42,162 bases of DNA from Holophagaceae bacterium (GTDB lineage Bacteria > Acidobacteriota > Holophagae > Holophagales > Holophagaceae), in the NCBI GenBank assembly GCA_025353305.1, contig JANXQX010000041.1, positions 1 to 42,162 on the forward strand, in the 5' to 3' direction. Every line of letters starts with the position of its first letter. The first letter of the stretch is position 1. Shown piece by piece: positions 16,724 to 35,497 of the stretch. The position numbers and the translations under genes were made by a program. Below the pieces are notes generated by a model. It made no database searches. It saw nothing but the letters and a program-made list of their open reading frames with translations, and was not told where the DNA came from.

Positions 16724-16754
16724 CTTGATTCTCCTGTTGAGTTGGTTGATGGAA

Positions 16755-17236: not shown

Positions 17237-17256
17237 TGCGGTGCTCCAGTGGACCT

Positions 17257-17565
17257 TCAGCCCCGAAGATCTTTCGCCGCATCTGACATACCGCGCTTGA
17301 GATCACCAGCGGCAAGGGCCGTGCGCTGTTTCATATCGGCAGCGGCAACCATGGTGCGTTCCTTCAAGTCGTCATAGGCCTCGTAGGCATCGTCGGCCAA
17401 AGCCCCGGCCTTACGCTTGGCGCGACCGGCAAGATCTTTGAGATCCCCACGCAGCTCGGGACCGGTCTTGGGTGTGGTGAGGGCCATCACGACTGCACCG
17501 ACGGCGGCGCCGGCGAGGAAAGTCATCAGCATGGAACCGATGGGGGTAGTGTTTTCTTGACTCAT
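17257..17565 (-). CDS. YtxH-domain stress protein
   Basis: 102 aa. One N-terminal membrane segment (MLMTFLAGAAVGAVVMAL) followed by TTPKTGPELRGDLKDLAG and an amphipathic Ala/Lys/Asp-rich helix to the end, the standard YtxH layout. AGGAG upstream of the ATG. The 11-base gap to the DUF948-like gene points to one operon with it. Function unknown; family members are general stress proteins. Confidence 0.87.
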   Translation of the reverse strand: MSQENTTPIGSMLMTFLAGAAVGAVVMALTTPKTGPELRGDLKDLAGRAKRKAGALADDAYEAYDDLKERTMVAAADMKQRTALAAGDLKRGMSDAAKDLRG

Positions 17566-17576
17566 GATTAGTGCTC

Positions 17577-17966
17577 CTAAAGAGAATTGTTTGAGGATTT
17601 CCTGCTTTTGAAGAAAGCCAGCACGGCGCTGGCCCCTCCGATAATTCCGCCAAAATTTCTGGAGGCAGATTCGATGGTGCTGTGAAAACTGTTGTGGAAA
17701 TTCCTTACGGTTTGTCCCACTTCCCCCATCAGTTGGACGAAGGTGGAAAGCTCATCGAGGTAGGTCTGAAGGGAGCCGGTCAGTTGATCCATACGCAATC
17801 GGGATTCATGCACATCCTCTGCGATTTGGGACAAATCCCTCCTCGTCGAGAGCAGAAAGGCGTCCACCCCCCGGGCTGTGTGGCGCAGTTGAAAAAGCAG
17901 GGGCAACAAGCCAACCGCAAGGGCGACCAAAACCACGATAAGCGTGATCTCAAGGGCAATGGGCAT
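17577..17966 (-). CDS. DUF948-like membrane-anchored coiled-coil protein
   Basis: 129 aa. N-terminal membrane helix (ALEITLIVVLVALAVGLLPLLF) followed by a long helical region with repeated Leu/Val spacing (LRHTARGVDAFLLSTRRDL, MDQLTGSLQTYLDEL), then a Gly/Ala-rich hydrophobic patch (FGGIIGGASAVLAFF). This is the DUF948 pattern, commonly found next to YtxH genes as here. The role is unknown. Confidence 0.75.
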   Translation of the reverse strand: MPIALEITLIVVLVALAVGLLPLLFQLRHTARGVDAFLLSTRRDLSQIAEDVHESRLRMDQLTGSLQTYLDELSTFVQLMGEVGQTVRNFHNSFHSTIESASRNFGGIIGGASAVLAFFKSRKSSNNSL

Positions 17967-17984
17967 GGCGACTCCAAATACTAT

Positions 17985-18476
17985 TCATGATTCTTGATGG
18001 GCTTTAAGCATCCAGAGGGCCTTGTCCATGGCCCGGCTGATAGCTTTGTAAAGGTCTACGGAGTCTGGATCTCCGAGCTGTTCAGCCCGGCGGATCGCCT
18101 TGCGCATCCGCCCGGTGTATTCACCGTAGCGATCCACCAAAGAGTCCACATGGATCTTGCTTTCCAGCGCCTCCAAAGGGTATTCCGCAAGATTCGAGGA
18201 GCTTGCTGCGCTACGGATAGTGCCCAGGGCTTGACCCCCCATGGAAACCACCCGCTCGGCAAAGTCATCCACATAAGCGGCCAATTGGTCGAAGAGGCCG
18301 TCGAACAATAAATGAAGGCTGTAGAAATTCTGTCCCTTCACGTTCCAATGGGCCTGCTTGGTCTGGTAAGCCAAATCGAGCGTGTCCGCTAGGGACTGAT
18401 TCAGCATTGCCACCAGATCCCTGGTGGTCTTGGCATCAAACATCACGTGTTCAGCTAGTGCAGGATTTCTGGCCAT
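17985..18476 (-). CDS. dps: Dps-family ferritin-like DNA-protection protein
   Basis: 163 aa. Ferroxidase residues of Dps are present: His in AHWNVKG, His and Asp in LHLLFDGLFD, and Asp and Glu in YVDDFAERV. The fold oxidises Fe(II) with peroxide and stores Fe(III) in a 12-mer; many members also bind DNA. The N-terminus is short and not strongly basic, so DNA binding is uncertain. It sits 18 bases upstream of the DUF948-like gene, suggesting co-regulation of iron and oxidative protection with envelope stress proteins. Confidence 0.93.
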   Translation of the reverse strand: MARNPALAEHVMFDAKTTRDLVAMLNQSLADTLDLAYQTKQAHWNVKGQNFYSLHLLFDGLFDQLAAYVDDFAERVVSMGGQALGTIRSAASSSNLAEYPLEALESKIHVDSLVDRYGEYTGRMRKAIRRAEQLGDPDSVDLYKAISRAMDKALWMLKAHQES

Positions 18477-18553
18477 GGTGGGTTCCCGGAGTAATGCATC
18501 AAGTCGGAGTGTTCGTCGGGTGAAGCAGGCGATCTTCCGGCCCCCTGAGCAGA

Positions 18554-18697
18554 TCAGGTGGTTTCGGCGGAGCTATGGAATTGTGAGTTGAGCTCCAACC
18601 AAGCCATCTCGCTTTCCCTCGCGTTGTCACTGGCAGCCTTCCATTGGGCCAACTGTCCAACCAGGTTGCCCTCATAGGTAACGAAATTTTCGATCAT
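18554..18697 (-). CDS. 47-aa mini-protein related to the coiled-coil gene at 18773
   Basis: ATG with CCAGGAGGTTTC directly upstream, an excellent ribosome site. Its start, YEGNLVGQLAQWKAASD, matches YENKLDAQLAQWKADLD of the next gene. Its end, AWLELNSQFHSSAETT, matches the frame-corrected end of that gene (VWAEIKSQFQGTAEKA). It therefore looks like a copy that lost its middle about 50 residues. Soluble, helical; function unknown. Confidence 0.7.
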   Translation of the reverse strand: MIENFVTYEGNLVGQLAQWKAASDNARESEMAWLELNSQFHSSAETT

Positions 18698-18772
18698 GAA
18701 ACCTCCTGGAATGATGGGTCGCCCGACCCCGGATGACCCGAATGAAAATGGCTGCAGCGGTAGAACATGGGG

Positions 18773-19102
18773 TCAACTTTGGTGACTACTCCCGGTTACC
18801 GTTCCCCTGCGATGATCAGGCTTTTTCAGCAGTGCCCTGGAACTGGGACTTGATCTCAGCCAGACTTTCTCCATGCCGACCTTCACGTTTTCCCAGGCAT
18901 CGTCAGTGGCGGCTTTCAAGTTGCCCAAGTGCTTGCTGGCTTCGTCGTGCTTCTCCTCCAACGCAGTAATGGTTTTGTCGTAATTGACCATCACATCAAC
19001 TCCAGTGAGCTTGGCCTTGGCCTTCAGCACATCAAGGTCGGCCTTCCATTGCGCCAACTGGGCGTCCAGCTTGTTTTCGTAAGCTTTGCGGTCTTCGAGC
19101 AT
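18773..19102 (-). CDS. Small coiled-coil stress-type protein, frameshifted near its end
   Basis: 109 aa as it reads. It is a helical, charged protein without signal (YENKLDAQLAQWKADLDVLK, ITALEEKHDEASKHLGNLK, ATDDAWENVKVGMEKVW). After VGMEKVW the frame becomes LRSSPSSRALLKKP, which is out of character. With one extra G at 18859-18862 the frame continues AEIKSQFQGTAEKA and stops at 18816, the natural end. The real protein is probably about 95 aa. Start ATG with AAAGGAGG upstream; 10 bases from the Lmo0937-like gene, so one operon. Confidence 0.75.
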   Translation of the reverse strand: MLEDRKAYENKLDAQLAQWKADLDVLKAKAKLTGVDVMVNYDKTITALEEKHDEASKHLGNLKAATDDAWENVKVGMEKVWLRSSPSSRALLKKPDHRRGTVTGSSHQS

Positions 19103-19112
19103 GGGACCTCCT

Positions 19113-19262
19113 TTAAAGGACTCTCCGGCCTTGGATGATTCGGATGAGGATGACGATGATGGCGAGTATCAGTAGAAGGTGGATGAAGCCGCCCAACACA
19201 TGGAAACCAACAAAACCTAGCAACCAAAGAACGATCAATACGACAGCGATGGTCCATAACAT
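19113..19262 (-). CDS. Lmo0937-family small membrane protein
   Basis: 49 aa. AAAGGA precedes the ATG. Begins MLWTIAVVLIVLWLLGFVGF, then HVLGGFIHLLLILAIIVILI and ends RIIQGRRVL: two membrane helices and the C-terminal RxIxGRR motif of the lmo0937 family. Function unknown. Confidence 0.85.
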   Translation of the reverse strand: MLWTIAVVLIVLWLLGFVGFHVLGGFIHLLLILAIIVILIRIIQGRRVL

Positions 19263-19317
19263 GACATTTCCTTTCAATAATGGTTTCGCTTGAAGAAGCC
19301 GATGGCTTCCCTCATGA

Positions 19318-20082
19318 CTACTTGACGGTCATATGATTCCGAACTTTCTTCACGCCTTCGATGTCCCCGGCAATCCTGGCCACGAGTTCCTTCTCTGCCT
19401 CGTTCTGAGCCTCCCCCCGCAGGAACACCACACCATTCTTGGTGGTTACCTTGGTGTCCACAGGATGGGTGGATTTGTGCATGACAAGGGCCAGCTTGAT
19501 CTGGGCTGTGATGGAAGAATCGTCCACCTTCTCCCCCAGGGTCCGGTGGGCCTTTTCGGGCTTGGACACGACCAGCTCATTACGGACTTCAGTGACACCC
19601 TCCACATCCTTGGCGTAATCGCCCGTAAGCTGCTTTTGCCCATCGGAGTCGGCAATGCCGGACAAGGTGACCACGCCGTTCTGCGTATGCACCTCGGTAT
19701 CCTTGGCACTCACATGCTTCCGGAAGGCCAGTGCGCCTTTGACCTTCATGGTGATCCAGCCATCGGAATGCTCAGCAGGCTGCTCGCCAACCACTGAAAG
19801 CTGGTTGACCACGCTTTTGACCCCAGGCAGTTCCGAAACGGTCTCCTCAGCCAGGGACTTGTGATAGTCATAGGCTACGGTACCTGTGAGCGTGACCACG
19901 CCGTGGGACGACTCGACCTTGATAGTGTCATCCTTCAGATAGGTCTTGAAGTTGTAGCTGCTCTTGGCGGAGGCCTCGATCCGGTTGTCCTGATCAGTGG
20001 CTTGCAGGGGCAGTCCGCCCACCATGACCAAGGCCGTGGCAACCAGGAGTGCGGTTCGGGGATTGAGCGCGAAATTACGCAT
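19318..20082 (-). CDS. Periplasmic protein with three BON domains
   Basis: 254 aa from the ATG at 20082 (AAAGGATG upstream; the longer frame to 20133 lacks a site). Signal peptide ends near residue 29 (ALVMVGGLPLQA). Three BON repeats follow: TIKVESSHGVVTLTGTV, DTEVHTQNGVVTLSGIA and DTKVTTKNGVVFLRGEA, each ending with a VKSVVN- or VRN-type segment. BON domains bind phospholipid or membranes; OsmY-type proteins protect the envelope under osmotic and desiccation stress. A loose half-element TTCAATCAATCGGAA lies upstream at 20246. Confidence 0.9.
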   Translation of the reverse strand: MRNFALNPRTALLVATALVMVGGLPLQATDQDNRIEASAKSSYNFKTYLKDDTIKVESSHGVVTLTGTVAYDYHKSLAEETVSELPGVKSVVNQLSVVGEQPAEHSDGWITMKVKGALAFRKHVSAKDTEVHTQNGVVTLSGIADSDGQKQLTGDYAKDVEGVTEVRNELVVSKPEKAHRTLGEKVDDSSITAQIKLALVMHKSTHPVDTKVTTKNGVVFLRGEAQNEAEKELVARIAGDIEGVKKVRNHMTVK

Positions 20083-20148
20083 GGTGCATCCTTTTTTCTG
20101 CCCCGTAGGGCGACTGGGTTGAAAAAGTCTCAAAGCGGGTGAGCCTGG

Positions 20149-20285: not shown

Positions 20286-20489
20286 TTACTTTTTCACTTC
20301 TCCCGGTATGGTTTTCTCGTTTGGATTCTTGTTCATTCCAGGTTTGGGTTCATTCTCTGGCACTGGCTTGGTGCCGTGCTTGGGATCGAATTTGGGATCG
20401 TGCCTGGATTCGTGCTTGGAGATATCGTCCACCTTCTTGGAGCAGGAAAATTGCCAGCCACTGGAACCAGCTTCGGACTTTTGCATCAT
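20286..20489 (-). CDS. Small hydrophilic Lys/Pro/His-rich protein
   Basis: 67 aa, no signal or membrane segment. Content: KVDDISKHESRHDPKFDPKH, then PVPENEPKPGMNKNPNEK. AAGGGAG lies upstream of the ATG. Such intrinsically disordered, hydrophilic composition is typical of small stress (hydrophilin-like) proteins, but no family is recognised. It has its own sigma-54-type promoter (20573) and the two-dyad element (20651) upstream, the main reason to believe it is a real gene. Confidence 0.6.
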   Translation of the reverse strand: MMQKSEAGSSGWQFSCSKKVDDISKHESRHDPKFDPKHGTKPVPENEPKPGMNKNPNEKTIPGEVKK

Positions 20490-20572: not shown

Positions 20573-20588
20573 AGCATCATCCGGGCCA
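20573..20588 (-). promoter_or_regulatory. Sigma-54 (-24/-12) promoter for the small hydrophilic gene
   Basis: Minus strand TGGCCCGGATGATGCT: TGGC at -24 and TGC at -12, spacing exact. It lies about 84 bases before the ATG at 20489. The two-dyad element begins 64 bases further upstream (20652), the distance expected for an enhancer-binding protein. Confidence 0.65.
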
Positions 20589-20650: not shown

Positions 20651-20693
20651 ATTCAATCAAGATGAATTACCATATCCTTCAATTCGAAGGAGA
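20651..20693. promoter_or_regulatory. Two-dyad enhancer-type element, copy A
   Basis: First dyad ATTCA-N7-TGAAT (20651-20667), second dyad CCTTC-N5-GAAGG (20677-20691); the TTCAA cores start 26 bases apart (20652 and 20678). It differs from copy B at only 3 of 43 positions. There is no credible gene on it. Location between the OmpA terminator and a -24/-12 promoter fits an upstream activator site for a sigma-54 enhancer-binding protein. Confidence 0.7.
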
Positions 20694-20721
20694 TACGCAT
20701 CTCGAACAGGACGATGGAGCC

Positions 20722-20755
20722 AAGAAAAAACCAGGGTGCCTCGCGGCACCCTGGT
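20722..20755 (-). terminator. Intrinsic terminator after the OmpA/Ig operon
   Basis: ACCAGGGTGCC and GGCACCCTGGT form a perfect 11-pair stem with a 4-base loop (20730-20755). On the minus strand it is followed by TTTTTTCTT. It lies about 30 bases past the stop of the gene 20784-21968 and ends the leftward operon from 26259. Confidence 0.93.
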
Positions 20756-20783
20756 CCCTAGTTGTACATTTGCACATAGGCAA

Positions 20784-21968
20784 TTACGGTTGCTTGGTGC
20801 CGTGTACTTCGATTTCCACGCGGCGATCCGGCTGTAGGCAGGCAATCAGTTTTTTAGTTGCCTTGGTGCCTTTGCAGGCATCGGCCTTGGTCACGGGCTG
20901 AGCTTCACCCATGCCTGAGGCCGAGATCTTTCCGGCGGGGATCCCTGCGGATTCCACCAGATAGTCCTTGACCGCTTCGGCGCGTTGATTCGACAGCTTC
21001 AGGTTGTATTTTGGCGAACCGATGCGGTCGGTGTGACCCACTACCTTAATGACATCAAATTGGGTGCCTTTGAGTTCTGCGGCAAAGGTGTCGAGTTCTC
21101 GTTTGGCTTCAGGCCTTAGGGTGAACTTGTCAAACCCAAAAAGATTGTCTGCGGAGAAAGCCACGTGCCTCGGTTGAGGTGGCGGTGGTGGCGGTGGTGG
21201 CACCACTACGGGCGGCGGTGGTGCTGGCGCCGGTGGTGGTGGCGGTTCTGGCGCCGGTGGTGGCGGTGGCGGTGGCGGAGGTTCCGGCACCACTACGGGC
21301 GGCGGCGGCGGGGCCGGAGTGCTTCGACCGAACCTGATGAGCAGGCCGATGGAGGCAAGATCAACGTCGCCTTTATTGCCAACAGCATCGTCAATCCTGT
21401 AGCGTTCGACTTCGGCGCGCATTCCCACCGATTTTGTGAAATCGTACTGGATTCCACCACCGAATTTGATGTTCGAACCGCGCTTACTCGGGTTGGGAGT
21501 TAGCACGTGGACCGCCCCGGCTCCAGTGAAGGTATCCGTGGCTTCAGCGTTGTTGATTCCGATCCGGCCAAACGCAGAGAACTTCTCAGTGAAGGGAATA
21601 CTGATGACTGCGTCAACATTCAGGCCTTTCAGCTTGATGTCGCCGTTCAAGGTTCCTAGTGGCACCGTAGTCGCCAGGAAATCGAACTTACCCAGATCGA
21701 AATAGCCTGCTTCAAGGGCGAAATACCGGTTGAACTGGTAGCCGCCGAAAACCTTGAAGCCGGTGTCATTGTTGTGATCAACGATCGAAGTGGTGCTGAA
21801 CCCTGCTCCCAACAAGCCACTGGTGATCCTCGCATCGTCTATTTTCGCCATGGATCGGCCAAAATTGAAGCCTACGTACAAGCCTGAGTCCTGGGCCACA
21901 GCGAAAGGGCTGGCGATCAGGGTAAGCGCTACGAGCCGTAGCAACCCTGAGGCTCTTGGTAATCTCAT
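20784..21968 (-). CDS. Outer-membrane beta-barrel protein with proline hinge and OmpA domain
   Basis: 394 aa. Signal peptide to about residue 25 (LVALTLIASPFAVAQ). Residues about 28-215 form an 8-stranded barrel (GLYVGFNFGRSM, FGGYQFNRYFALEAGYFDL, FGRIGINNAEATD, IKFGGGIQYDFT, SIGLLIRFG). About 217-270 is a hinge of proline runs with VVVPEP. About 275-392 is an OmpA peptidoglycan-binding domain (DKFTLRPEAKRELD, VVGHTDRIGSPKYNLKLSNQ, PDRRVEIEVHG), including a Cys pair typical of OmpA C-terminal domains. Structural link between outer membrane and cell wall. SD GAGGAG. It lies 36 bases after the Ig/DUF3494 gene and ends at the terminator. Confidence 0.93.
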   Translation of the reverse strand: MRLPRASGLLRLVALTLIASPFAVAQDSGLYVGFNFGRSMAKIDDARITSGLLGAGFSTTSIVDHNNDTGFKVFGGYQFNRYFALEAGYFDLGKFDFLATTVPLGTLNGDIKLKGLNVDAVISIPFTEKFSAFGRIGINNAEATDTFTGAGAVHVLTPNPSKRGSNIKFGGGIQYDFTKSVGMRAEVERYRIDDAVGNKGDVDLASIGLLIRFGRSTPAPPPPPVVVPEPPPPPPPPPAPEPPPPPAPAPPPPVVVPPPPPPPPQPRHVAFSADNLFGFDKFTLRPEAKRELDTFAAELKGTQFDVIKVVGHTDRIGSPKYNLKLSNQRAEAVKDYLVESAGIPAGKISASGMGEAQPVTKADACKGTKATKKLIACLQPDRRVEIEVHGTKQP

Positions 21969-22004
21969 GATTTCTCCTCTGGAATAATTACCGATTTATT
22001 GAAG

Positions 22005-25000
22005 TCATTGGGGGACGTTGACAGTATTGGAATCCAGGACAATCGCTCCAGGGCCAATCGCACCGGCCAACAGACGGCCGTAGATGGTGGCGCCGGTTTG
22101 ACCCGTGATGCTCACGCCCGCGATGATGGTTCCGTAGAAGTTCGTGCCCACACCGATGGTCGCTGATGCCGTGCAAACCCAGAAAACATTGCGGGGGTTG
22201 GCGCCGCCAAGGAGCGAAACAGTACCCAATGGAGTCGTCGTGGTCAGTGAGGAGCCAATCTGGAAAACCCAGATGGCATTCGCGTTTCCGCCCGCGTTGA
22301 GAACAAGCGGGGTGTTGATTGACATCGTGCTGCCAGAGGTATACGTCCCCGGTGGGATGCCGCCGGAAGAAGCTGGGTACAGGGCACCCAGATCCGCGCC
22401 AGCCGTGATGGTCACGCCAGGAGGCAGGTTCTTGTAGTAGTTGTAGGCGCTCAACAGGTCGGCATAGGCCGCTTGGGCGATAGAATCCCCAATGTGGATC
22501 GTGCCGTTAACCTGGGCAGGCAGCAAGCCATTGGAGGAGCCTGGATAGAGCGCGACATCCCCATTGATCATGGTGGAGGCACCGGTGTTGCTGATTGAAT
22601 TGCTCGACATGATCCCGTAGGTCCCAGCCAAACCAAGGTGGGAGGGGAGTGGTGCTGGTTGGCAATTCGTGACGGTAAAGGTCCAGGTGAAGTCACTCAG
22701 CATCGCATTGGCTGGGATGGCGAGATCCTTGACGCCAGTCGAACCCCCTTTGATGGTGGCCGTATAGGTGACGCCCACGGTGAGATTGCTGGCTGGCGTG
22801 AAGGTCGCAATGCGGCCGGTGAGGGGATCAAGGACGACTGATGAAGACAGGACGGGGGTAAAAGCAGGCGAGGGTCCCGTCACAGTTACGGTTGAGGCGT
22901 TGACTGTCGAGGGGTCCAACCGGAGACCGGAGGGCACATTGAAAGTCGCGTTGATGGTCGAGTCAGGGCACACCGTAAGCGAACCAGCAGCAGGGTTCGT
23001 TGAAGTCACAGTGATATTGCCAGGGATGGCGGGGGCCCCAGTCCTGAAGGTCCACACATAGTCACTGGGATTGGGCAGGGGAGCCTGATTGCCTGCCAGG
23101 GCATTGCCTGCCAAGTCCGTGGCCGCCAGGGTGATGGTGACGGTATAGGTCGTGCTGGTTTGAAGCACGGCTGTTGGAGTGAAAATCGCGGTTTTGAAAG
23201 CGTAGCTCACGCTGCCAGATACCAGCGTCGTGCCGGGTCCCCGAACGATGAAGCTGGAGGTGGAAATCGTATTGACGTCCATATCCTCGGAGAAAACAGC
23301 GGTGATCGCCGTGTTGGTGGGCACGAGATCCGTGGGACCAGGAATGGTCGTAGCTGGGATGGTGAGGGTCACTCGGGGCCTGGTGGTGTCAGTGGACACA
23401 CCGGTCGTGAAGGTCCACACATAATCACTGGGCGCGGGCAGCGGAGCTTGATTGCCGGCCAGCGCATTGCCTGCCAGATCCTGGGCTGCCATGGTGATCG
23501 TGGCAGTATAGGTCGTGAGCGGTGCCAGTGCTGTGAGGGGTGTGAAGACCGCGGATCTGGAGGCGTAGCTCACGCCACCCTGCAAGAGGAGCCCGCCTGG
23601 TCCCGTCACTGTGAAGCTGGAGACATTGATCGTGGCAGGAGCCATATCCTTGGTGAAAGCTGCGGCGATGGCGGTATTGATGGGCACGGCGGTGGTGGGG
23701 CCTGGAATCGTCGTGGCCGGGATGGTGATGGTCACTCGGGGACGGGTCGTGTCGGGGGCTGGACCGGTGGTGAAGGTCCAGACATAGTCACTTGCTCCAG
23801 GCAAGGGGGCTTGATTACCAGCCAGGTTGTTGCCGGCCAGGTCCGTGGCCGCCATGGTAATGGTGGCGGTATAGGTCGTGTTGACCGCAAGCGCTGTCAC
23901 GGGAGTGAAGATTGCAGTTCTGGACGCGTAGGTTACGGAGCCTTCTACGGCAATCCCGCCAGGTCCTTTAACCGTGAAGGTCAGAGGTGCCGTGATGGTC
24001 GCAGGGGCCATATCTTCGGTAAAGGCAGCGGCGATGGCTGTGTTGACCGGCACATTGGTCGGGCCAGGAATCGTCGTGACCGGGACCGTGATGGTCACTC
24101 GGGGCCGGATCGTGTCGGGTGCTGGACCGGTGACGAAGGTCCATATGTAATTGCTGGCCGCGGGCAAAGGGGCTTGATTACCGGCCAGGGCGTTGCCGGC
24201 CAGATCCGTGGCCACGGTGGTGATGGTGGCGGTATAGGTCGTGGCTGGAAGCAGCAAAGCTGTTGGTGTGAAGACTGCGGTCCGGGAAGCATAGCTCACG
24301 GTGCCAGCGACCACTGTCGAGCCAGGGCCGGTCAAGGTGAAGGTTCCCGGTGCCAGGATGGTCGAAAGGGCCATGTCCTCGGTGAAAGCCGCGGCAACGG
24401 CCGCGTTGACCGCCACTCCCGTGCGAGGAGGAATGCTTGTGACTGGATTGGTGAGTGTCACCCGTGGCCGAGTGATATCCGGTCCTGGACCTGTTGTGAA
24501 GGTCCAGACATAGTTGCTGGCCGCAGGTAGGGCGGCTTGATTGCCGGCCAAGGCGTTACCCGCCAGATCCGTGGCCGCCATGGTGATCGTGGCGGTGTAG
24601 GTCGTGAGGGGCGTCAACTCTGCCACTGGCGTAAAGACTGCGATTCTGGAAGCGTAGGTCACCGAACCAGAAACTGTGGTGGTGCCAGGTCCAGTCACCG
24701 TGAACGTGCCTGAAGCCGTGATGGTCGCAGGAGCCATATCCTTGGTGAAGGCGGCCGCGATTCCCGTGTTGGTCGGGACATTCGTCTGACTAGGAATCGT
24801 GGTAGCGGGGACCGTAAGCGTCACCCTGGGCCGGGTCGTATCTGGGCCTGGGCCCGTTGTGAAGGTCCAGACATAATTGCTAGCCGCAGGCAAGGCGGCT
24901 TGATTGCCAGCCAAGGCGTTGCCCGCCAGGTCCGTGGCCGCCGTGGTGATCGTGGCGGTGAAGGTCGTGAGGGGTGCCAAGGCGGTCGTTGGTGTGAAGA

Positions 25001-25661
25001 ACGCAGTTTTGGAAGCATAAGACACGCTGCCGGCTACGGCGGTCACGCCAGGTCCAGTCACCGTAAAGGTGCCTGAAGCAGTGATGGTTGCAGGGGCCAT
25101 GTCTTCAGTGAAGGCTGCGGCAATGGCCGTGTTGGTGGGCACATCAGCAGTGGGCCCTGGAATCGTGGTGGCCGGGACTGTAAGGGTCACGCGGGGTCGG
25201 ATCGTGTCTGGGGCTGGCCCTGTCACAAAGGACCAGGCATAGGGATTCTCCAACGCCAAGCCTGTTGCTAGGCTTTTGGCACTGGTGACGGTGGCGACAT
25301 AGAGATTGTCGGGCGCGAGAGTAGTTCCCGCGGTCAGCGTAAAGGTTGCAGTTCTATTGGTGCCGTCGAGAGCCACTGTTCCCGTGGGGGACTGGGCCGA
25401 ACCGGCCGAGGTCACGGTAAAGGTTGCTCCGCTGGTAATCGGGGCCATCGCTTCACTGAAGGTGGCGGTAATGCCCGGATTGGTGACTGATACTCCGGTG
25501 GCATTGTTCAGCGGGGTCACCGCCGTCACCGTGGGTGGGTGCACCGCATTTGCGCCGGTGCCAAGGATCGGGTTTTGCGATCCGCAGCTGGTCGCCAAGG
25601 CAACCAGCAGCGCCGCGAGAGACACCATCAGGGGCTTGGTATAGCTTTTTAATAGGTTCAT
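22005..25661 (-). CDS. Giant lipoprotein with tandem Ig-like (Big_5/SbsA type) repeats and C-terminal DUF3494 domain
   Basis: 1218 aa. Lipoprotein signal with LATSC (Cys26). After a first Ig-like domain (about 40-150: VTAVTPLNNATGVSVT, ATFSEAM) come six close repeats of about 121 aa, each with DT(I/T)RPRVTL, TNTAIAAAFTEDMAPATI, TFTVTGPG, ATDLAGNALAGNQA and YVWTFTTG, then a more divergent Ig domain (SLTVCPDSTINATFNV). The last 210 or so residues are DUF3494 (LGLAGTYGIMSSNSIS, GTYTSGSTMSIN, ANAIWVFQIGSSL, NVFWVCTASATIG). A stalk displaying a beta-solenoid head fits an adhesin- or matrix-like surface protein; ice binding is possible but untested. Likely cotranscribed with the lipoprotein at 25819 and the OmpA gene below. 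Confidence 0.9.
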   Translation of the reverse strand: MNLLKSYTKPLMVSLAALLVALATSCGSQNPILGTGANAVHPPTVTAVTPLNNATGVSVTNPGITATFSEAMAPITSGATFTVTSAGSAQSPTGTVALDGTNRTATFTLTAGTTLAPDNLYVATVTSAKSLATGLALENPYAWSFVTGPAPDTIRPRVTLTVPATTIPGPTADVPTNTAIAAAFTEDMAPATITASGTFTVTGPGVTAVAGSVSYASKTAFFTPTTALAPLTTFTATITTAATDLAGNALAGNQAALPAASNYVWTFTTGPGPDTTRPRVTLTVPATTIPSQTNVPTNTGIAAAFTKDMAPATITASGTFTVTGPGTTTVSGSVTYASRIAVFTPVAELTPLTTYTATITMAATDLAGNALAGNQAALPAASNYVWTFTTGPGPDITRPRVTLTNPVTSIPPRTGVAVNAAVAAAFTEDMALSTILAPGTFTLTGPGSTVVAGTVSYASRTAVFTPTALLLPATTYTATITTVATDLAGNALAGNQAPLPAASNYIWTFVTGPAPDTIRPRVTITVPVTTIPGPTNVPVNTAIAAAFTEDMAPATITAPLTFTVKGPGGIAVEGSVTYASRTAIFTPVTALAVNTTYTATITMAATDLAGNNLAGNQAPLPGASDYVWTFTTGPAPDTTRPRVTITIPATTIPGPTTAVPINTAIAAAFTKDMAPATINVSSFTVTGPGGLLLQGGVSYASRSAVFTPLTALAPLTTYTATITMAAQDLAGNALAGNQAPLPAPSDYVWTFTTGVSTDTTRPRVTLTIPATTIPGPTDLVPTNTAITAVFSEDMDVNTISTSSFIVRGPGTTLVSGSVSYAFKTAIFTPTAVLQTSTTYTVTITLAATDLAGNALAGNQAPLPNPSDYVWTFRTGAPAIPGNITVTSTNPAAGSLTVCPDSTINATFNVPSGLRLDPSTVNASTVTVTGPSPAFTPVLSSSVVLDPLTGRIATFTPASNLTVGVTYTATIKGGSTGVKDLAIPANAMLSDFTWTFTVTNCQPAPLPSHLGLAGTYGIMSSNSISNTGASTMINGDVALYPGSSNGLLPAQVNGTIHIGDSIAQAAYADLLSAYNYYKNLPPGVTITAGADLGALYPASSGGIPPGTYTSGSTMSINTPLVLNAGGNANAIWVFQIGSSLTTTTPLGTVSLLGGANPRNVFWVCTASATIGVGTNFYGTIIAGVSITGQTGATIYGRLLAGAIGPGAIVLDSNTVNVPQ
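23040..25215 (-). repeat. Six tandem ~363-bp coding repeats in the giant lipoprotein gene
   Basis: The DNA encoding the TRPRVTL segment recurs near 23371, 23733, 24098, 24460, 24823 and 25187, so the unit is 362-365 bases. Units are similar at DNA level, including the stretch encoding GNALAGNQA. This points to recent tandem amplification and makes copy number liable to change by slippage or unequal exchange, or to assembly collapse. Confidence 0.85.
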
Positions 25662-25818
25662 TTGCTTCCTCTCTTGATCTGTTGCGGTCGAGTGGGATGG
25701 GGTTCAGCTGGCATAGGGCTCCTCTTTCTTGTGGTATTCGGTGGAAGTGCCCAGACAAGGCAACGCCAGACCATCCGCTTTCAGACGGAGACGCAACGGT
25801 GCAAGGTGCCTGGCGTAT

Positions 25819-26259
25819 CTAGCTAGGTTGTTCGACCTCCGCAGTGAAGACTGGTTCGTGGGTGGGTTCTGAGACCCGTCCACCGGGTTCCGGCGTGACA
25901 GTAATAAGGAATCGGCGGTGCGGTGTCACCGTGTCGAGGCTTCCTTCAAGATTGTTGTTCAACATCAGCGCACCGATATTTTGCCTAGCGGCATTCCGCG
26001 CCTGCAGCCACACCACATAGACCGTCGCGTCCGTTGCGAGCTTCGAGGGTGGCGCCAGGTGTTTGACCTTGATGGAGACTTTGACGTTGTCGTTCTCTCC
26101 GACCGTAGCCTTGACCGTCCCTTGGCTAGCAGGAACTTCAGCGGCGGATTGCATGATCTGGGGTTTTGCACAGCCAAGTGAGCTACCTACAAAAATCGTG
26201 GTTGCAGGCAATGCAACCGCTAAAACAACGCGCCGGATCTTCACGGTGGGTAGCCGCAT
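25819..26259 (-). CDS. Lipoprotein with the same beta-domain as the OmpA protein at 14837
   Basis: 146 aa from the ATG at 26259. GAGGAG lies just upstream, and the earlier ATG at 26274 would lie within about five bases of the predicted transcription start. Signal VVLAVALPATTIFVGSSLGC with a somewhat imperfect lipobox (SLGC, Cys30). The mature domain, VKVSIKVKHLAPPSKL, then ATVYVVWLQARNAARQNIGAL and FLITVTPEPGG, aligns by eye with IHITAKVKDLPQAS, LTYVLWGISPEGRATNLGEL and LIVTAEPYF of the gene at 14837. First gene of the operon driven by the sigma-54 promoter at 26290. Confidence 0.8.
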   Translation of the reverse strand: MRLPTVKIRRVVLAVALPATTIFVGSSLGCAKPQIMQSAAEVPASQGTVKATVGENDNVKVSIKVKHLAPPSKLATDATVYVVWLQARNAARQNIGALMLNNNLEGSLDTVTPHRRFLITVTPEPGGRVSEPTHEPVFTAEVEQPS

Positions 26260-26289
26260 GGGCAGACTCCTCATTTCTGAATTGAAAGG

Positions 26290-26305
26290 AGCAATTCTCA
26301 GACCA
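26290..26305 (-). promoter_or_regulatory. Sigma-54 (-24/-12) promoter for the lipoprotein/Ig/OmpA operon
   Basis: Minus strand TGGTCTGAGAATTGCT: TGG at -24, TTGC at -12, exact spacing. Predicted transcription start about 26279, 20 bases before the ATG at 26259. The two-dyad element starts 63 bases upstream at 26368. No equally good promoter is visible in the 157-base gap before 25661, so this one probably serves all three genes down to 20784. Confidence 0.72.
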
Positions 26306-26366
26306 TTTTTATAAGCCTAGTATTAGTAATGTTTGTGATCTTTTCGTACAGTACTTTTCTTGGCTC

Positions 26367-26409
26367 ATTCAATCAAGATGAAGTACCATATCTTTCAAAT
26401 CGAAGGAGA
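26367..26409. promoter_or_regulatory. Two-dyad enhancer-type element, copy B, in front of the activator gene
   Basis: ATTCAATCAAGATGAA followed 26 bases later by TTCAAATCGAAGG. It matches copy A at 40 of 43 positions. It sits in the divergent region between the lipoprotein (left) and the V4R activator (right). Its right end contains AAGGAG, the ribosome site of the activator, so a bound activator could also affect its own expression. Confidence 0.72.
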
Positions 26410-26420
26410 AACCCGGCCTC

Positions 26421-28088
26421 ATGCGCGCGGATGACCTGGACCCCAAGGAACTGCTGGAACTGGACCCCGAAGGCGGCGTGATCCGCTTCGCTGGACAGCG
26501 GGCGATCCTGCTTGATGCGGTAGCGATGGGACTTTTGCGTAAGTACCTGGTGGAAAATTTTGGGCTCAACGCGGCCCGCACCGTCTTCACCCAATTTGGG
26601 TTTGCTCATGGCTGGCGCATGGCCGAGGCCATGCAGTCCCACTTCAAATGGGACAGCGACGAAGAATGGCGCCTGGCTGGCACCCGCCTCAATAACTTCG
26701 AAGGCCTCTTCCGTGTGGAGGCGGGAAGCAAAGATCCCCTTTCCAAGGAAGGCGTGATGCTGGTCGCATCCTACGAGGCGGAGCAGCATTTATTGCACTT
26801 TGGCCGTGCCGATGCGCCCATGTGTTGGACCATCTCCGGCCTGATCAGTGGCTACCTCAGCCGCATTGCAGGGAAAGAGATCTTTGTCCTGGAAGACCGC
26901 TGCATGGGCAAAGGCGATGCGGGTTGCCACCTGCTGGGGCGCACCCGGAAAGATTGGGGCGACGAGCACGCCGATGAGCTGCGATTTTATAACTCCGACC
27001 GCCTGGCGGAATGCCTCGATGTATCCCTGCATCGGGTCACCCAGACCTTGAAGACTGCCGAGCACAGGCTTCTTGAGCGGCGCCGGGAATTGATCCGCGT
27101 GGCGCCTGATGTGGAAGAGCCCATGGGCATCGTCGCCAAGAGCACAGCGATGAAACTGGTGGTGAATTTGGCGTGCCGTGTGGCTTTGGTGGACTCCACC
27201 GTTCTGATCACCGGAGAAAGTGGATCAGGCAAAGAGCGCATCGCCCGGCTCGTCCATCACGAATCTACGCGGGCCGCGGGCCCCTTCATCGCGGTGAACT
27301 GCGGCGCCATCACTGAAACCCTGCTTGAAAGTGAGCTGTTCGGCCACGCCCGGGGTGCCTTCACTGGGGCGACCCACGATCGGCCGGGTCTGTTCGAGGC
27401 GGCCAACAATGGGACGCTGTTGCTGGATGAGATCGGCGAAGTCTCGCCGGGCATGCAGGTCAAACTTTTGCGGGTGCTCCAGGAGCGAGAAATCCGGCGG
27501 GCCGGCGAAAACAAAAACCGCAAGGTTGATGTGCGCGTATTGGCCGCTACCAATCGCGACCTCAACCAGGCGGTGGCGGAAGGCAGCTTCCGACAGGATC
27601 TCTACTATCGCCTGAAGGTCGTGGAACTCCACGTGCCACCGCTTCGCGAACGCAGGGACGATGTCCTGCCCCTCGCCCGGGTGCTGCTCGCTGATGTAGC
27701 GCTGCGGATGAAACGGAAAATCTCCGGGTTCGCCCCGGACGCGGCCGTGCAACTCCTGCGCTGCGAGTGGCCCGGCAATGTGCGCGAGCTTGAAAACGCC
27801 ATGGAGCGCGCCGTGGCGCTCGCCCGGGGCAGCCGCGTGGAATTCGAGGATCTGCCTGATGAAGTCAGACAGGCAATCCCCAGGCCCGTACCCACCAAGG
27901 GCGTGTTGCCGCTGGAGAAAGTGGAGAAGAGTTACATCCTTGCGGCAATGGATCTAAACGATGGCAACCAGACCCGCACCGCCGAGCAACTCCAGATCGG
28001 CTCAGCGACACTGTATCGAAAGCTCAAGAGCTACGGCATGATCGGCGTGAAGCGCGCGGGCGGGAAAGAGACCAAAGCAGTTAGCTGA
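26421..28088 (+). CDS. XylR_N/V4R sigma-54 enhancer-binding activator
   Basis: 555 aa. Residues about 20-110 are XylR_N-like and 110-175 V4R. Cys135, Glu158, Cys161 and Cys169 have exactly the spacing (+23, +26, +34) of the zinc ligands of the phenol sensor MopR/DmpR. AAA+ domain about 235-460: Walker A GESGSGKE, intact [12 protein letters not shown] loop, [18 protein letters not shown]. Fis-type HTH about 505-545 ([22 protein letters not shown]). XylR/DmpR proteins bind a small, often aromatic ligand that relieves repression of the ATPase; the phenol-contact residues do not line up obviously here, so the ligand is unknown. ATG with AAGGAG. It is flanked by copy B of the element and lies between two leftward surface-protein transcription units that carry the element. 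Confidence 0.93.
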
Positions 28089-28156
28089 TCAGCTACCTGA
28101 ACATCAGCTTCGGTGGGAAATCCAGGCTACGAGATCCGAGCTACTTAAAAAAAATA

Positions 28157-28184
28157 AAAGAGGCCGCTGGGATGCGGCCTCTTT
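28157..28184. terminator. Bidirectional intrinsic terminator
   Basis: AAAGAGGCCGC (28157-28167) pairs perfectly with GCGGCCTCTTT (28174-28184), 6-base loop. On the minus strand it is followed by TTTTATTTTTTTT, serving the gene 28217-30640; on the plus strand a short T-run may serve the activator gene. Confidence 0.88.
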
Positions 28185-28216
28185 CGTTCAGTTGGCAGTA
28201 TTTCCTTCGTGCCTAG

Positions 28217-30640
28217 TTACGGCGCGGGTTGAACCACGGTACTGCTATCGAGGGTGACCGCCGTTTGCGCCAGCAGCCTGCCGTTGATGGACGAGCCGGT
28301 TTGCATGGCGACCGCGGTTTGAGTCAGGACGATTCCCTCAATGTGAGCCGTGGTTCCGATATCCACCGAACCGCTGACCTGCCAGAAAACGTTCTTGGGT
28401 AAAGCGCCCCCCATCAGGATGATTTGCGTGGCATTGGCCAGGGTGAGGTTCTGGGCGATCTGGAAGATCCAAACATCTGTCGCGCTGCCCGTGAGGGTGA
28501 CATTGGTGGGGATCAACAGCCCTGTACCCCATTTGTAGACGCCCGGAACGAGGGTCATTCCGCCGATGTTGCCGGCCCCCAGTTCAGTGACACCCGCCGC
28601 GCGGCCCGCAGCTACTGTTAAGGCAATCTGCATGTCGCTGACGGCCGCGGTCATCTTGTCCGGGGTGGGTATTGCGTAATTGGACGCATACACCTTGCCG
28701 GTAACCTGGGTGGAGGTGGAGAACACATTTGAAGGATCAGCCGTCAACGCGAAGCCAGTGATGTAAGTGGCCGCAGCGGGGCTGACGCCAATGTTGCCGG
28801 TTATGGCAGAGGTCGGCACGGTGGAGATCCCGGTTTTTGTGAGGATCACGAAATTGCCGGCTGTACCTAGATTTACGGGAATTCCGGGCACCATGGCAGG
28901 CAAGGTGGTGAAGCTCCAGGTATGGTTCGTGGCAAGGGCAACGCGCACGGCGCTCTTGGCGCCGATGGTGATGGTCGCGGTATAGATGCGGCTGTTCACA
29001 AGGGAAGAGGCGGGCGTGAAGACGACCGTCGAATTGCCGTAAGCCACGGTGCCAAGGACTGCACCGGCACTGGAGGTCAAGGTGAACGTGCTGGTGGAGA
29101 GTGTGGCTTGATCCATCGCCTCGCTGAAGGTGGCGCTGATGCTGCCATTAAGCCCAACGCCGACGGCGCCGTTGAACGGGGTATTGGCAAGAACGGTCGG
29201 TATGACCGGGTTGCCACCGCCGGTGGTGAAACTCCAGGTGTGGTTCGCTGCCAAGGCGACCCCCAAGGCATTCTTAGCCCCGGTGGTGATGGTCGCTGTA
29301 TACAATCGGTTGCTCACGAGCGGTGTGGTGGGTGTGAAGACGGCTGTGGAATTGGCGTAGGTGACTGAGCCCTGGACCGCACCAACGCTGGAGGTCAGCG
29401 TGAACGTGTTCGTGGTCAAGGTGGTCTGATCCATTCCCTCGCTGAAGGCGGCGCTGACGTTGATGTTGAGGAGAACGCCGGTGGCGTTGTTGAGGGGGTT
29501 GGTGGCAAGGACCATCGGTATGGAGGCGATGCCACCGTCCGTCACCGTGCTGCCATCAAGGGTGACCGCCGTCTGCGCCAGCAATCTGCCATTGATGGAC
29601 GAACCCGTCCGCATGGCCACTGCTGTTTTAGTCAGGATGACTCCCGCGCAATGCGCGGTGGTCCCAATGTCAACGGCTCCGCTGACTTGCCAGAAGACGT
29701 TCTTGGGCAAGGCGCCACCCGCCAGGAAGATATTTGTGGCGTTAGCCATGGTGAGATTCTGGGCGATCTGGATGACCCAGACATCCGTCGCACTGCCCCT
29801 GAGGGTGACATTCGTGGGAATCAGGAGTCCGGTGCCCCATTTGTAAACGCCCGGAACGAGCGTCATCCCGCCGATGTTCCCGGCGCCCAATTCGGTGGCA
29901 TCGGGTGCGCGCCCCGCCGCATCGGTGAAGGCCAGTTCCATATCACTGACCGCCGTGGTCATGTTGGACGGGGTGGGCAGCGCGTAATTGGCCGCGTACA
30001 CCTTTCCCACAACTTGGGTCGAGGTCGAGAAAACATTCGAAGCATCTGCGGTCAATGAGAATCCGGTGATATAGGTGGCTGCCGCAGGACTGACCCCAAT
30101 GTTCCCGGTAACGGCGGAGATCGGCACCGTGGAAATTCCGGATTTTGCGAGAATCACGAAATTGCCAGCCGTTCCGAGATTCACCGGGAGTCCAGGCATC
30201 ATTTGGTGGCCGGTGGTGAGGCTCCAGACATGGTTGATCGGCAGGGGGACACCGAACGTGTTCTTGGCCCCGGTGGTGATCGTCGCCGTGAAGGGGGTGT
30301 TGCTCATGAGGTGGGCCGTCGGCCAGAAGACCGCGGTGGCGTTGGCGTAGACCACGGTGCCCTGCACCGGGACCGTCGAAGACCCGGAAGTCAACGTGAA
30401 GGTACTCGTATTGAGGGTGGCGGGATTCATCGCCTCGCTAAAGGTCACGCTCACGCTGCCGTTGAGAGCCATGTCGCTGGGGCCGTTAGGGGGGTTGCTG
30501 GACATGACCGACGGAGCGGTTGGCGGTGGCTGGGTTGTAACAATCTGATTGCTGGAGCCTCCACAGGCGGCCAGCGAGAGCAGGAACAGGAAGGTAGTTC
30601 CCTGTTTCAAGAGATTCGATTTGGAATTCATCAACATCAT
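28217..30640 (-). CDS. Lipoprotein with Ig-like domains and two DUF3494 domains
   Basis: 807 aa. Lipoprotein signal LFLLSLAACGG (Cys26). Order: Ig-like (about 40-145, VSVTFSEAMNPATL), DUF3494 #1 (about 150-370, PVNLGTAGNFVILAKSG to NGRLLAQTAVTL), two Ig-like domains (about 380-590, AAFSEGMDQTTL and ATFSEAMDQATL), DUF3494 #2 (about 595-805). The two DUF3494 copies are nearly identical over long stretches (GNIGVSPAAATYITGF, ELGAGNIGGMTLVPGVYKWG, LPKNVFWQVSG). ATG with AGGGAG. Surface adhesin/matrix or ice-binding-like role, as for the gene at 22005, with which it shares the promoter and element type. Confidence 0.9.
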   Translation of the reverse strand: MMLMNSKSNLLKQGTTFLFLLSLAACGGSSNQIVTTQPPPTAPSVMSSNPPNGPSDMALNGSVSVTFSEAMNPATLNTSTFTLTSGSSTVPVQGTVVYANATAVFWPTAHLMSNTPFTATITTGAKNTFGVPLPINHVWSLTTGHQMMPGLPVNLGTAGNFVILAKSGISTVPISAVTGNIGVSPAAATYITGFSLTADASNVFSTSTQVVGKVYAANYALPTPSNMTTAVSDMELAFTDAAGRAPDATELGAGNIGGMTLVPGVYKWGTGLLIPTNVTLRGSATDVWVIQIAQNLTMANATNIFLAGGALPKNVFWQVSGAVDIGTTAHCAGVILTKTAVAMRTGSSINGRLLAQTAVTLDGSTVTDGGIASIPMVLATNPLNNATGVLLNINVSAAFSEGMDQTTLTTNTFTLTSSVGAVQGSVTYANSTAVFTPTTPLVSNRLYTATITTGAKNALGVALAANHTWSFTTGGGNPVIPTVLANTPFNGAVGVGLNGSISATFSEAMDQATLSTSTFTLTSSAGAVLGTVAYGNSTVVFTPASSLVNSRIYTATITIGAKSAVRVALATNHTWSFTTLPAMVPGIPVNLGTAGNFVILTKTGISTVPTSAITGNIGVSPAAATYITGFALTADPSNVFSTSTQVTGKVYASNYAIPTPDKMTAAVSDMQIALTVAAGRAAGVTELGAGNIGGMTLVPGVYKWGTGLLIPTNVTLTGSATDVWIFQIAQNLTLANATQIILMGGALPKNVFWQVSGSVDIGTTAHIEGIVLTQTAVAMQTGSSINGRLLAQTAVTLDSSTVVQPAP
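28230..30200 (-). repeat. Internal duplication of the DUF3494 segment
   Basis: About 660 bases near 28230-28880 recur at about 29540-30200, both encoding a DUF3494 domain with the same start (PVNLGTAGNFVIL) and end (LLAQTAVTLD). The middle holds two similar Ig-like units. A recent Ig-plus-DUF3494 duplication explains it. Confidence 0.75.
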
Positions 30641-30720
30641 GGCTCCCTGGCGGTAGCGGTTTGTCTAAAATTCATGAATAGACAACCCGCTTGTGGCGGA
30701 GCGCATGAACGTGTAACTAG

Positions 30721-30736
30721 AGCAATTTTCTGTTCA
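30721..30736 (-). promoter_or_regulatory. Sigma-54-like promoter for the second Ig/DUF3494 gene
   Basis: Minus strand TGAACAGAAAATTGCT has a perfect TTGCT at -12 and T-G at -24, but A replaces the second G. The element copy C starts 64 bases upstream, matching the other two sites. Predicted leader about 70 bases. Confidence 0.5.
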
Positions 30737-30798
30737 TACTGTTAACATATATTATTATAGTATTTATGTTACATTTTAAACAACAATTGGAGCCATTT

Positions 30799-30840
30799 GT
30801 TCAATCATTATGAAGGACTAGCTCCTTCAATTCAGAGGTG
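30799..30840. promoter_or_regulatory. Two-dyad enhancer-type element, copy C
   Basis: TTCAATCATTATGAA and, 26 bases after the first core, CCTTCAATTC with a weakened right arm (AGAGG). About 31 of 42 positions agree with copy A, with both cores and their spacing kept. It lies in the divergent region between the Ig/DUF3494 gene (left) and the CheB-CheR gene (right). The rest of 30641-30955 holds a small hairpin CCAGA/TCTGG (30886-30901) and no gene. Confidence 0.6.
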
Positions 30841-34616: not shown

Positions 34617-34838
34617 TTACGCCTTTTCGCGATGATTGGGCTTGAATCGGGCGATCCACTCGTCAATCTGCTGCTCGGCTTCGTCCTTGAGAACCCCGTA
34701 GTGTTCTTGGATCTTGCCGATCAGATGGTCCTTCCTTCCTGCGACCTTTTGCAGGTCGTCATCCGTGAGTTTGGCCCAGTGCACTTTGACCTGCCCTGCC
34801 CGCTGATGCCAATGCCCTTCGATTTGATTCCAATTCAT
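34617..34838 (-). CDS. CsbD-family stress protein
   Basis: 73 aa from the ATG at 34838 (AGGAGAT upstream; the longer frame to 34871 has none). MNWNQIEGHWHQRAGQVK, then WAKLTDDDLQKVAGRKDHLIGKIQEHYG is the CsbD signature, followed by a helical tail. CsbD proteins are small general-stress proteins of unknown mechanism. Confidence 0.9.
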   Translation of the reverse strand: MNWNQIEGHWHQRAGQVKVHWAKLTDDDLQKVAGRKDHLIGKIQEHYGVLKDEAEQQIDEWIARFKPNHREKA

Positions 34839-35275
34839 CGTGATCTCCTCTTGAAATGCGACCGGGAACAATGCGGAATAGCCATCTCAACTGACGAGTA
34901 GACTCGCCAATCTCGTTTTCGTTGCTCGACTCCGTTGATTTAGCTCAAGGCAGGTGCAGTTTTCGCGCCGAATTTCACGAAGCCGGTAACTCGCTGAAAA
35001 AACACTGGGATTTTCATCGGGAGGGAATCCTTCAGAGCCAGAGCTGGATGAAAAGCTCTATCAAAATGAAGGTGTTATTGCTTCAAACTGAATGGAGGAT
35101 CAACTAAAGCTAGGGCCAGGTGGGATCCTTCAGACACCTTAAAGCATCCCCGCGATCCGTGTAGGTTGGTTCCCAATGCGAGTCTTGCTTGGGTCAAGCC
35201 ATTGCTCACGGCAGCCTCTCAAGAATGAATGCCACCTGGCACCCGTCTTGCTGACCCTCGCTTGGAGGCTGGTTC
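34839..35275. other. Gene-free region between CsbD and the DUF3185-like gene
   Basis: I find no convincing gene. The region holds a sequence distantly like the two-dyad element at about 35063-35100 (ATCAAAATGAAG, TTCAAACTGAATGGAGG) and, at its right end, the sigma-54 promoter at 35237. No clear promoter for the leftward CsbD gene is visible. Confidence 0.45.
35237..35252 (+). promoter_or_regulatory. Sigma-54 (-24/-12) promoter for the DUF3185-like gene and kinase operon
   Basis: TGGCACCCGTCTTGCT matches the consensus TGGCAC-N5-TTGC completely. It lies 24 bases before the ATG at 35276, so the leader is very short. The kinase gene at 35561 may share this promoter. No good copy of the 43-bp element lies at the usual distance. 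Confidence 0.75.
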
Positions 35276-35497
35276 ATGAAGCTTATTGGCATCGTTCTGA
35301 TTGTATTTGGCCTATTGGCCTTGGCATTCGGCGGTTTCAGCTACACCAAGCGCGAGAAAGTACTGGATCTGGGACCAATCCACGCCACAACAGAGACGCA
35401 CAAAACCATTCCCATCGCGCCCATCGCAGGCATCGCCGCACTGCTCGGTGGCATCGCGCTGATTGTGGTGGGAGCAAAAACGGGCAGCAAGGTCTAA
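35276..35497 (+). CDS. DUF3185-like two-helix membrane protein
   Basis: 73 aa. TTGGAGG before the ATG. Helix 1 MKLIGIVLIVFGLLALAFGG, then a short soluble loop FSYTKREKVLDLGPIHATTE, then helix 2 IAGIAALLGGIALIVVGAK. The YTKREKVLDLGP loop is characteristic of this small inner-membrane family, function unknown. Preceded by a consensus sigma-54 promoter, and 63 bases before the hybrid kinase. Confidence 0.8.
   Translation: MKLIGIVLIVFGLLALAFGGFSYTKREKVLDLGPIHATTETHKTIPIAPIAGIAALLGGIALIVVGAKTGSKV

Follow-up and report, generated by a model that had tools for sequence, protein, structure and literature searches.

Activators of the XylR/DmpR/MopR/PoxR subfamily have the domain order XylR_N-V4R-AAA+-HTH and common zinc-ligand positions, given for DmpR as Cys151, Glu172, Cys177 and Cys185; Trp128 is described as strictly conserved, His100 positions phenol in DmpR, and XylR itself has Tyr at the His100 place (PMC7264223). 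DmpR-type sites are described as lying about 100-200 base pairs (bp) upstream (PMC7264223), the mphR-mphK system has inverted repeats ahead of a -24/-12 promoter that faces away from its regulator gene (PMC3063778), and XylR represses its own gene (PMC3469447). The window, that is, the whole stretch of DNA analysed here, comprises 42,162 nucleotides (nt) of contig JANXQX010000041.1 from a Holophagaceae bacterium of the Acidobacteriota; it holds several copies of a two-dyad element, one of which adjoins an activator gene (26421-28088) with the same domain order and zinc-ligand positions. Judged from sequence comparisons, the element is very probably the enhancer (upstream activating sequence, UAS) of this XylR/DmpR-type activator, which would regulate itself and drive an envelope and stress-type regulon through sigma-54.

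PspF has no sensor domain and is held by PspA, and it differs from the activator of the window, which carries a XylR_N/V4R domain and has other targets. The PspF regulon is alike in being a sigma-54-controlled membrane stress response (PMC3162934). NmpR of Myxococcus xanthus, with its oxygen-utilisation regulon, is also alike, being described as a sigma-54 activator that acts on paired dyads upstream of several promoters; it is a response regulator with the site GCGCA-N5-TGCGC (PMC11841059), whereas the protein encoded here has a XylR_N/V4R sensor and TCA-N3-TGA sites. With mphR-mphK the locus shares inverted repeats, a -24/-12 promoter downstream of them and the divergent orientation of that promoter and the regulator gene (PMC3063778). 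It departs from DmpR in that the element is fixed near 71 nt from the promoter and in that Trp128 is replaced, by Leu, Ile or Ala, in each of the 23 sequences aligned (PMC7264223 for DmpR); it may depart from the subfamily in its targets too, with no aromatic catabolism among the target families listed. The kind of system is known, and the regulon itself is undescribed as far as the literature was searched: no description was found among the matches listed, in line with an earlier reading of the sequence alone, and no paper combining DUF3494 and sigma-54 was found in the collection searched.

The two-dyad element and its neighbouring activator

The sequence-only reading had proposed three copies of the element, each containing TTCA-N7-TGAA, at a fixed distance from sigma-54 promoters. 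The copies lie where it put them, TTCA starting at 20652 (A), 26368 (B) and 30800 (C) rather than 20651, 26367 and 30799, and their likeness was confirmed over 44 nt (A-B 40/44, A-C 31/44, B-C 30/44 identical). In 29 of the 44 columns all three agree, and the next-best position in the window matches 20 of these 29. The dyad register had to be corrected to a conserved core of TCA-N3-TGA plus TCA-N2-(C/T)GA with centres 22 bp apart, which is also the usual spacing in comparison with relatives. The count of three was too low, as a further element, D, and a weaker tandem set, E, had been missed (Table 1). The half-sites of the core probably resemble those of the palindrome of XylR/DmpR.

The minus-strand -24/-12 candidates had been placed exactly (20573, 26290 and 30721), at 64, 63 and 64 nt from the TTCA of A, B and C, in agreement with the 63-64 nt claimed. 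A and B have GG-N10-GC, the B site matching 7 of 10 consensus positions, and C has GA for GG, so that the consensus is good in two of the three promoters. Paired dyads in the expected geometry with a promoter are found at A and B, not at C. C looks like a decayed site, because in the genome of the nearest relative a homologue of its gene (L118, 68% identity over 367 amino acids (aa)) has an intact element, with a score of 39.8, and TGGTTCGGAAGTTGCT at 71 nt. The element recurs at homologues of the genes of A and B: in L010 at a homologue of the 67-aa protein (46% over 50 aa), with a -24/-12 site at 73 nt, and in L010 and L138 at homologues of the gene that opens the presumed B operon, with -24/-12 sites at 72 and 71 nt, respectively. 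In L120, from the same nearest relative's genome as L118, 34 of 35 nt of D are identical and both flanking -24/-12 sites, toward the CsbD-like gene and toward the open reading frame (ORF) at 35276, are retained in an alignment of 78% mean identity. Matches resembling -24/-12 sites are frequent (25 places in the window have at least 8 of 10 positions and GG-N10-GC), so the consensus alone is weak evidence and relatives are needed; the convincing evidence is the fixed promoter position in relatives.

The gene at 26421, which the sequence-only reading took for the activator, encodes the expected domains (Sigma54_activat, E = 1.3e-69; HTH_8, 4.9e-12; XylR_N, 1.3e-27; V4R, 3.2e-10), with the GAFTGA-bearing AAA+ domain and C-terminal Fis-type HTH of a sigma-54 activator, and matches the PoxR, MopR and CapR structures in the PDB by sequence. 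Its zinc-ligand equivalents, C135, E158, C161 and C169, were mapped by alignment, the printed number of the DmpR Glu being slightly at odds with the chain spacing; they are identical in 23/23 aligned sequences, and the zinc spacing motif occurs in 120/120 homologues listed. The equivalent of DmpR Trp128 is Leu114 (Leu in 21, Ile in 1 and Ala in 1 of the 23), and that of His100 is Asn91, His being present in 18/23. Since this Trp, described as strictly conserved for DmpR, is missing here, phenol sensing in the known mode is unlikely, and one would expect either a ligand other than phenol or a different placing of it. Out of 8000 homologue candidates that were scored, the best 120 share 80-94% identity with the activator.

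Element, promoter and activator in relatives

A species-genome scan kept 79 loci with 62-94% identity to the activator, the nearest (94%) from an Acidobacteria metagenome-assembled genome (L001); their titles name Acidobacteria (Geothrix, Holophagaceae, Thermoanaerobaculia), Myxococcales, Polyangiaceae, Deltaproteobacteria, Planctomycetota, Gemmatimonadetes, Schekmanbacteria and Desulfocarbo. The site table comprised 73 of these loci and the window, 74 sequences from several phyla; L053, L063, L064, L066 and L076, in which the activator start lies outside the match, and L054 (match 1-510) were left out. A two-block matrix trained on the activator-proximal sites converged on TCA-N3-TGA twice. 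The gap between the nine-base cores was 13 in 38, 12 in 17, 11 in 9 and another length in 5 of 69 sites. A site scoring above 16 lies within 120 nt before the activator start in 64/74 sequences, and in 61/74 the second block ends at most 21 nt from the start codon; shuffled 200-nt upstream stretches (20 per sequence) reached a maximum of 16.8. Separately, a near-perfect palindromic site in L069, near 1394 (TATCAAATTGATA ... TATCAATTTGATG), may represent the ideal half-site.

The matrix was trained without promoter positions. Among the 63 activator-proximal sites with enough upstream DNA, a divergent -24/-12 score of at least 14 was found in 40, compared with 9/63 on the opposite strand and 5.8% of shuffles; the best promoter score was at least 13 in 50/63, and 44 of these 50 lie 69-73 nt from the centre of the first dyad. 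Another 86 elements in the loci and the window exceed a score of 18; a promoter stands at 69-74 nt in 33 of them and on the mirror side in 8, a comparison in which some elements are near-palindromic, so that the mirror side is no pure null, and in which at least two activator-proximal elements, those of L054 and L064, were wrongly counted among the 86, as they were in the set of 96 downstream proteins described below.

The link between element and -24/-12 sites proposed earlier held outside the training loci. Relatives' genomes were searched with a sequence-only covariance model built from 67 sites; where its matches lay outside the training loci, 60 surrounding stretches were taken, and these yielded 95 elements scoring above 20. 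With a promoter cut-off of 13.4, a -24/-12 site in the expected orientation lies 68-74 nt upstream of the first dyad in 68/95, as against 4/95 on the mirror side (sign test, 67 versus 3 discordant, p = 1e-16); at the control distance of 100-106 nt the count was 4, and at 40-46 nt it was 0. The result persisted when near-duplicates were removed (63/84 versus 2/84) and when stretches on contigs sharing a training locus were removed (62/85 versus 4). Pooling 233 distinct elements gave a peak at 70-73 nt. The spacer is AT-rich (56% versus 37% for the locus) and exceeds its locus in 123/139. Helical phasing of off-peak promoters at 59-62 and 89-95 nt was also considered; vector strength was 0.40 (p ~ 0.007) and on the mirror side 0.36 (p ~ 0.04), and phasing is not claimed.

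Genome-wide searches were likewise run on relatives' genomes. Geothrix campi has 7 matches at E of at most 1, and 6 of them fall within 1,063,118-1,077,765, a stretch of 15 kb that holds the activator (1,069,206), with a single further match in 3.3 Mb; 4 of the 6 are training sites, so this clustering is partly built in, though the scarcity of matches in the remainder of the genome is not. In 35 of another 39 genomes the site was matched at E of at most 0.2, one to 17 times each. The earlier description of a local regulon is therefore incomplete: in some relatives the regulon is dispersed, with up to 17 matches and targets beyond adhesins. The gene rpoN is present in 22/22 genomes scanned (of 40). 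Deleting rpoN is reported to be lethal in Myxococcus xanthus (PMC12316311), and attempts in Geobacter sulfurreducens reportedly gave no viable deletion (PMC2725144).

Site and activator also occur together. Counting as activator any match that includes the N-terminus at an identity of at least 60%, a site is present in 21/23 activator-bearing genomes of the class of G001 and in 8/58 without the activator (p = 6e-11); for genomes without a training site the figures are 9/10 versus 8/58 (p = 4e-6). In the phylum of G011 they are 4/8 versus 4/87 (p = 0.0013), and only G011 itself, whose activator is 81% identical, has many sites. Together with the fixed spacing and the closeness of site and activator gene in 61/74 sequences, this supports well the earlier view that an enhancer-binding protein acts here. 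As a separate observation, G082 and G083 of the first class have best sites at E = 8e-6 and 3e-6 and no activator at E of at most 1e-100, for which either missing contigs or a diverged activator would account.

Downstream genes and the proposed regulon

From the loci, 140 targets were called (99 + 41) and 136 scanned, three being cut at contig ends and one having masked bases; 96 control ORFs were drawn from the same loci and 95 used, the one dropped being the activator itself. Targets come from a simple ORF rule that takes first genes only and includes wrong frames and mutual relatives, so family counts are rough. Among the 96 proteins downstream of elements that are not activator-proximal (25 of 61 families listed), Big_5 was found in 9, Ice_binding in 8, Sod_Fe_C in 8, WXXGXW in 4, and RelA_SpoT, YflT, OmpA and others in 2 each. 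The 40 proteins divergent from the activator include Ice_binding in 6, Big_5 in 4, Cpn10 and pirin in 2 each, and BON, Ferritin and Cpn60 in 1 each. No aromatic catabolism family appears among the families listed for these first genes. In the controls, no Ice_binding, Big_5 or superoxide dismutase family occurs in at least 2 of the 95, OmpA occurs in 3 and Cpn60 in 1; the bound of at most 1/95 used below follows from the 25 of 85 control families listed, which include all those in at least 2 controls.

Ice_binding-like proteins are enriched downstream of the element (14/136 targets versus at most 1/95 controls, p = 0.003). Enrichment of Fe/Mn superoxide dismutase is suggestive only, with a borderline 8/136 versus at most 1/95 (p = 0.058), and OmpA (2/96 versus 3/95) and Cpn60 (1/40 versus 1/95) are not enriched. 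The term stress-type regulon is a reading of the target list and of the BON, CsbD, PRC, YtxH and ferritin-like genes of the window, and enrichment does not prove it. In a separate observation on the window, a run of such genes occupies 14837-20133 on the minus strand, encoding OmpA, PRC-barrel, YtxH and ferritin-like proteins and a protein with three BON stretches.

In the mechanism we propose, two activator dimers would bind the pair of TCA-N3-TGA dyads, which are separated by some two helical turns, and would switch on sigma-54 RNA polymerase at a -24/-12 promoter; the nearer dyad lies about 71 nt from this promoter. With the T of TGG taken as -26, the dyads would be centred near positions -97 and -119 relative to the start of transcription. 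Because B abuts the activator's own start codon, activator bound there probably also represses its gene, as XylR does. In the window, B would drive the operon for the lipoprotein-like, Ig/ice-binding-like and OmpA proteins, A the small hydrophilic protein, and D probably the CsbD-like gene and the small membrane protein in both directions, and C would act on the second ice-binding-like protein weakly or no longer. Expression would depend on sigma-54 and may be induced when the V4R domain binds a ligand linked to stress.

The broader picture is tentative: it is possible, though we would not favour it, that a stress regulon based on sigma-54, and not on a stress sigma factor, extends across Acidobacteriota, Myxococcota and others, in which a one-component V4R activator with a non-phenol ligand controls surface-adhesin and stress islands in mostly uncultured soil and sediment bacteria. 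Under that picture the superoxide dismutase, pirin, envelope and chaperonin targets would be compatible with a lipid, a quinone or a redox product as the ligand. The analysis offers a predicted activator, site, promoter geometry and target list for phyla in which the sites of few regulators have been established. It also suggests that surface and stress-type genes have come under a protein family known from aromatic degradation. Control of the DUF3494 ice-binding-like proteins becomes directly testable, and sites occur in the named, sequenced strains Geothrix campi, G. limicola and G. fuzhouensis.

Alternative readings and further features

Several findings pull against the enhancer reading. 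The activator-proximal scores are circular, as the matrix was trained on those sequences, and in 10 of the 74 no site exceeds a score of 16; the sites behind the covariance model were chosen for having promoters, its stretches come mostly from match-rich genomes, some closely related, and for 27 of the 95 outside elements no -24/-12 site lies at 68-74 nt. In the window, the C promoter lacks the GG of the -24 box and D lies at a non-standard promoter distance. Co-occurrence is imperfect as well: half of the activator-bearing genomes in the G011 phylum sample have no site, the figures for the class of G001 become 22/25 versus 7/56 without the N-terminus rule, and in that class 2/23 activator genomes have no site and 8/58 others have one, G082 and G083 strongly. 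These last exceptions would be expected if another regulator, a sigma-54 activator or a repressor, bound the element and the 26421 gene were merely one target. A second activator type in G088, G089 and G099, 63-64% identical in its AAA+/HTH part, also speaks for such a regulator. We regard this reading as improbable, given that the site lies within 21 nt of this very gene across several phyla, that site and activator gene co-occur in two samples and that the core probably resembles the XylR/DmpR palindrome.

That the element is coding, either as the activator start or as a small peptide (MKYHLLQFEG...) whose copies would be duplicated gene starts, is very improbable. Four homologues (P0002, P0006, P0009 and P0052) begin with such a peptide in frame in the alignment, but in the window the frame of 26378 is shifted by one base against that of 26421, C reads ATG AAG GAC TAG, and the single-base variation of the dyad gap noted above would break the frame, so that the coding reading was rejected. 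The MKYHLLQFEG-type extensions of these four proteins, whose counterpart in the window is 26378-26420, are very probably enhancer translated as protein, and their annotated starts look wrong. Chance AT-rich likeness near sites resembling -24/-12 boxes, or recent duplication, is less credible still: the 25 such matches in the window and the near-identity of A and B are what it would predict, and the positional peak outside the training loci, kept after near-duplicates were removed, contradicts it. The element is thus best read as the enhancer of the 26421 activator, whose features in the window are collected in Table 1.

Table 1 Positions of elements, -24/-12 sites and genes in the window
Feature	Position	Strand	Description
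Element A	20657..20687	+	dyads TCAAGATGA (20657-20665) and TCAATTCGA (20679-20687); two-dyad matrix score 39.9
Element B	26373..26403	+	dyads TCAAGATGA (26373-26381) and TCAAATCGA (26395-26403); end directly before activator start codon
Element C	30805..30835	+	dyads TCATTATGA and damaged TCAATTCAG; score 27.3
Element D	35061..35091	+	dyads TCAAAATGA and TCAAACTGA
Tandem set E, weaker	about 13170-13225		three dyads, ATTCAAATCAACTC, then ATTCAAAACGATGG twice; pair score 30.7
-24/-12 site of A	20573..20588	-	TGGCCCGGATGATGCT; 73 nt from dyad 1 centre
-24/-12 site of B	26290..26305	-	TGGTCTGAGAATTGCT; 72 nt from dyad 1 centre
Degenerate -24/-12 site of C	30721..30736	-	TGAACAGAAAATTGCT; GA replaces GG; 73 nt from dyad 1
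-24/-12 site toward CsbD gene	34955..34970	-	CGGCGCGAAAACTGCA; 95 nt from dyad 1 of D; kept in L120
-24/-12 site, other side of D	35237..35252	+	TGGCACCCGTCTTGCT, 10/10 consensus positions; L120 has TGGCATCAGATTTGCT
Activator gene	26421..28088	+	XylR_N, V4R, sigma-54 AAA+ (GAFTGA at residue 312), Fis-type HTH
67-aa hydrophilic protein	20286..20489	-	downstream of A; homologue in L010
OmpA-family outer membrane protein	20784..21968	-	last gene of presumed B operon
1218-aa protein	22005..25661	-	eight Big_5 Ig-like stretches and C-terminal Ice_binding domain
Lipoprotein-like gene	25819..26274	-	first of B operon; no Pfam match
807-aa lipoprotein-like protein	28217..30640	-	gene of C; two Ice_binding and three Big_5 stretches
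CsbD-like protein	34617..34871	-	
73-aa membrane-type protein	35276..35497	+	weak DUF3185/DUF202 match, below curated cut-offs

The presumed B operon runs from the lipoprotein-like gene through the 1218-aa Big_5/Ice_binding gene to the OmpA gene, and a hairpin with a T run (20731-20754, minus strand) stands after the OmpA gene and before element A. Set E is located between a 50-aa ORF (12797-12949, minus strand), which we take to be DUF3309-like, and an ORF at 13249, and no -24/-12 site was found at the usual distance from it. Over the whole window Rfam gave 0 matches and ARAGORN 0 genes.

The second activator type (for example G088:C1:1595084-1595998) resembles the window's activator over AAA+ and HTH only; it thus has another sensor domain, and may either use the site as well or compete for it. 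Upstream of an Ice_binding gene of the window (1644-2387), a plus-strand -24/-12 sequence with 10/10 consensus positions, TGGCACGTCAGTTGC, occupies 1552-1566, with a single weak dyad near 1494. Among the relatives, oppositely oriented element pairs about 72 bp apart occur at G008:C40:15558-15662 and 21063-21167 and at G006:C42:63955-64059; the G008 pair is present twice on one contig, in inverted order, and the pairs of both genomes adjoin ORFs resembling Fe/Mn superoxide dismutases.
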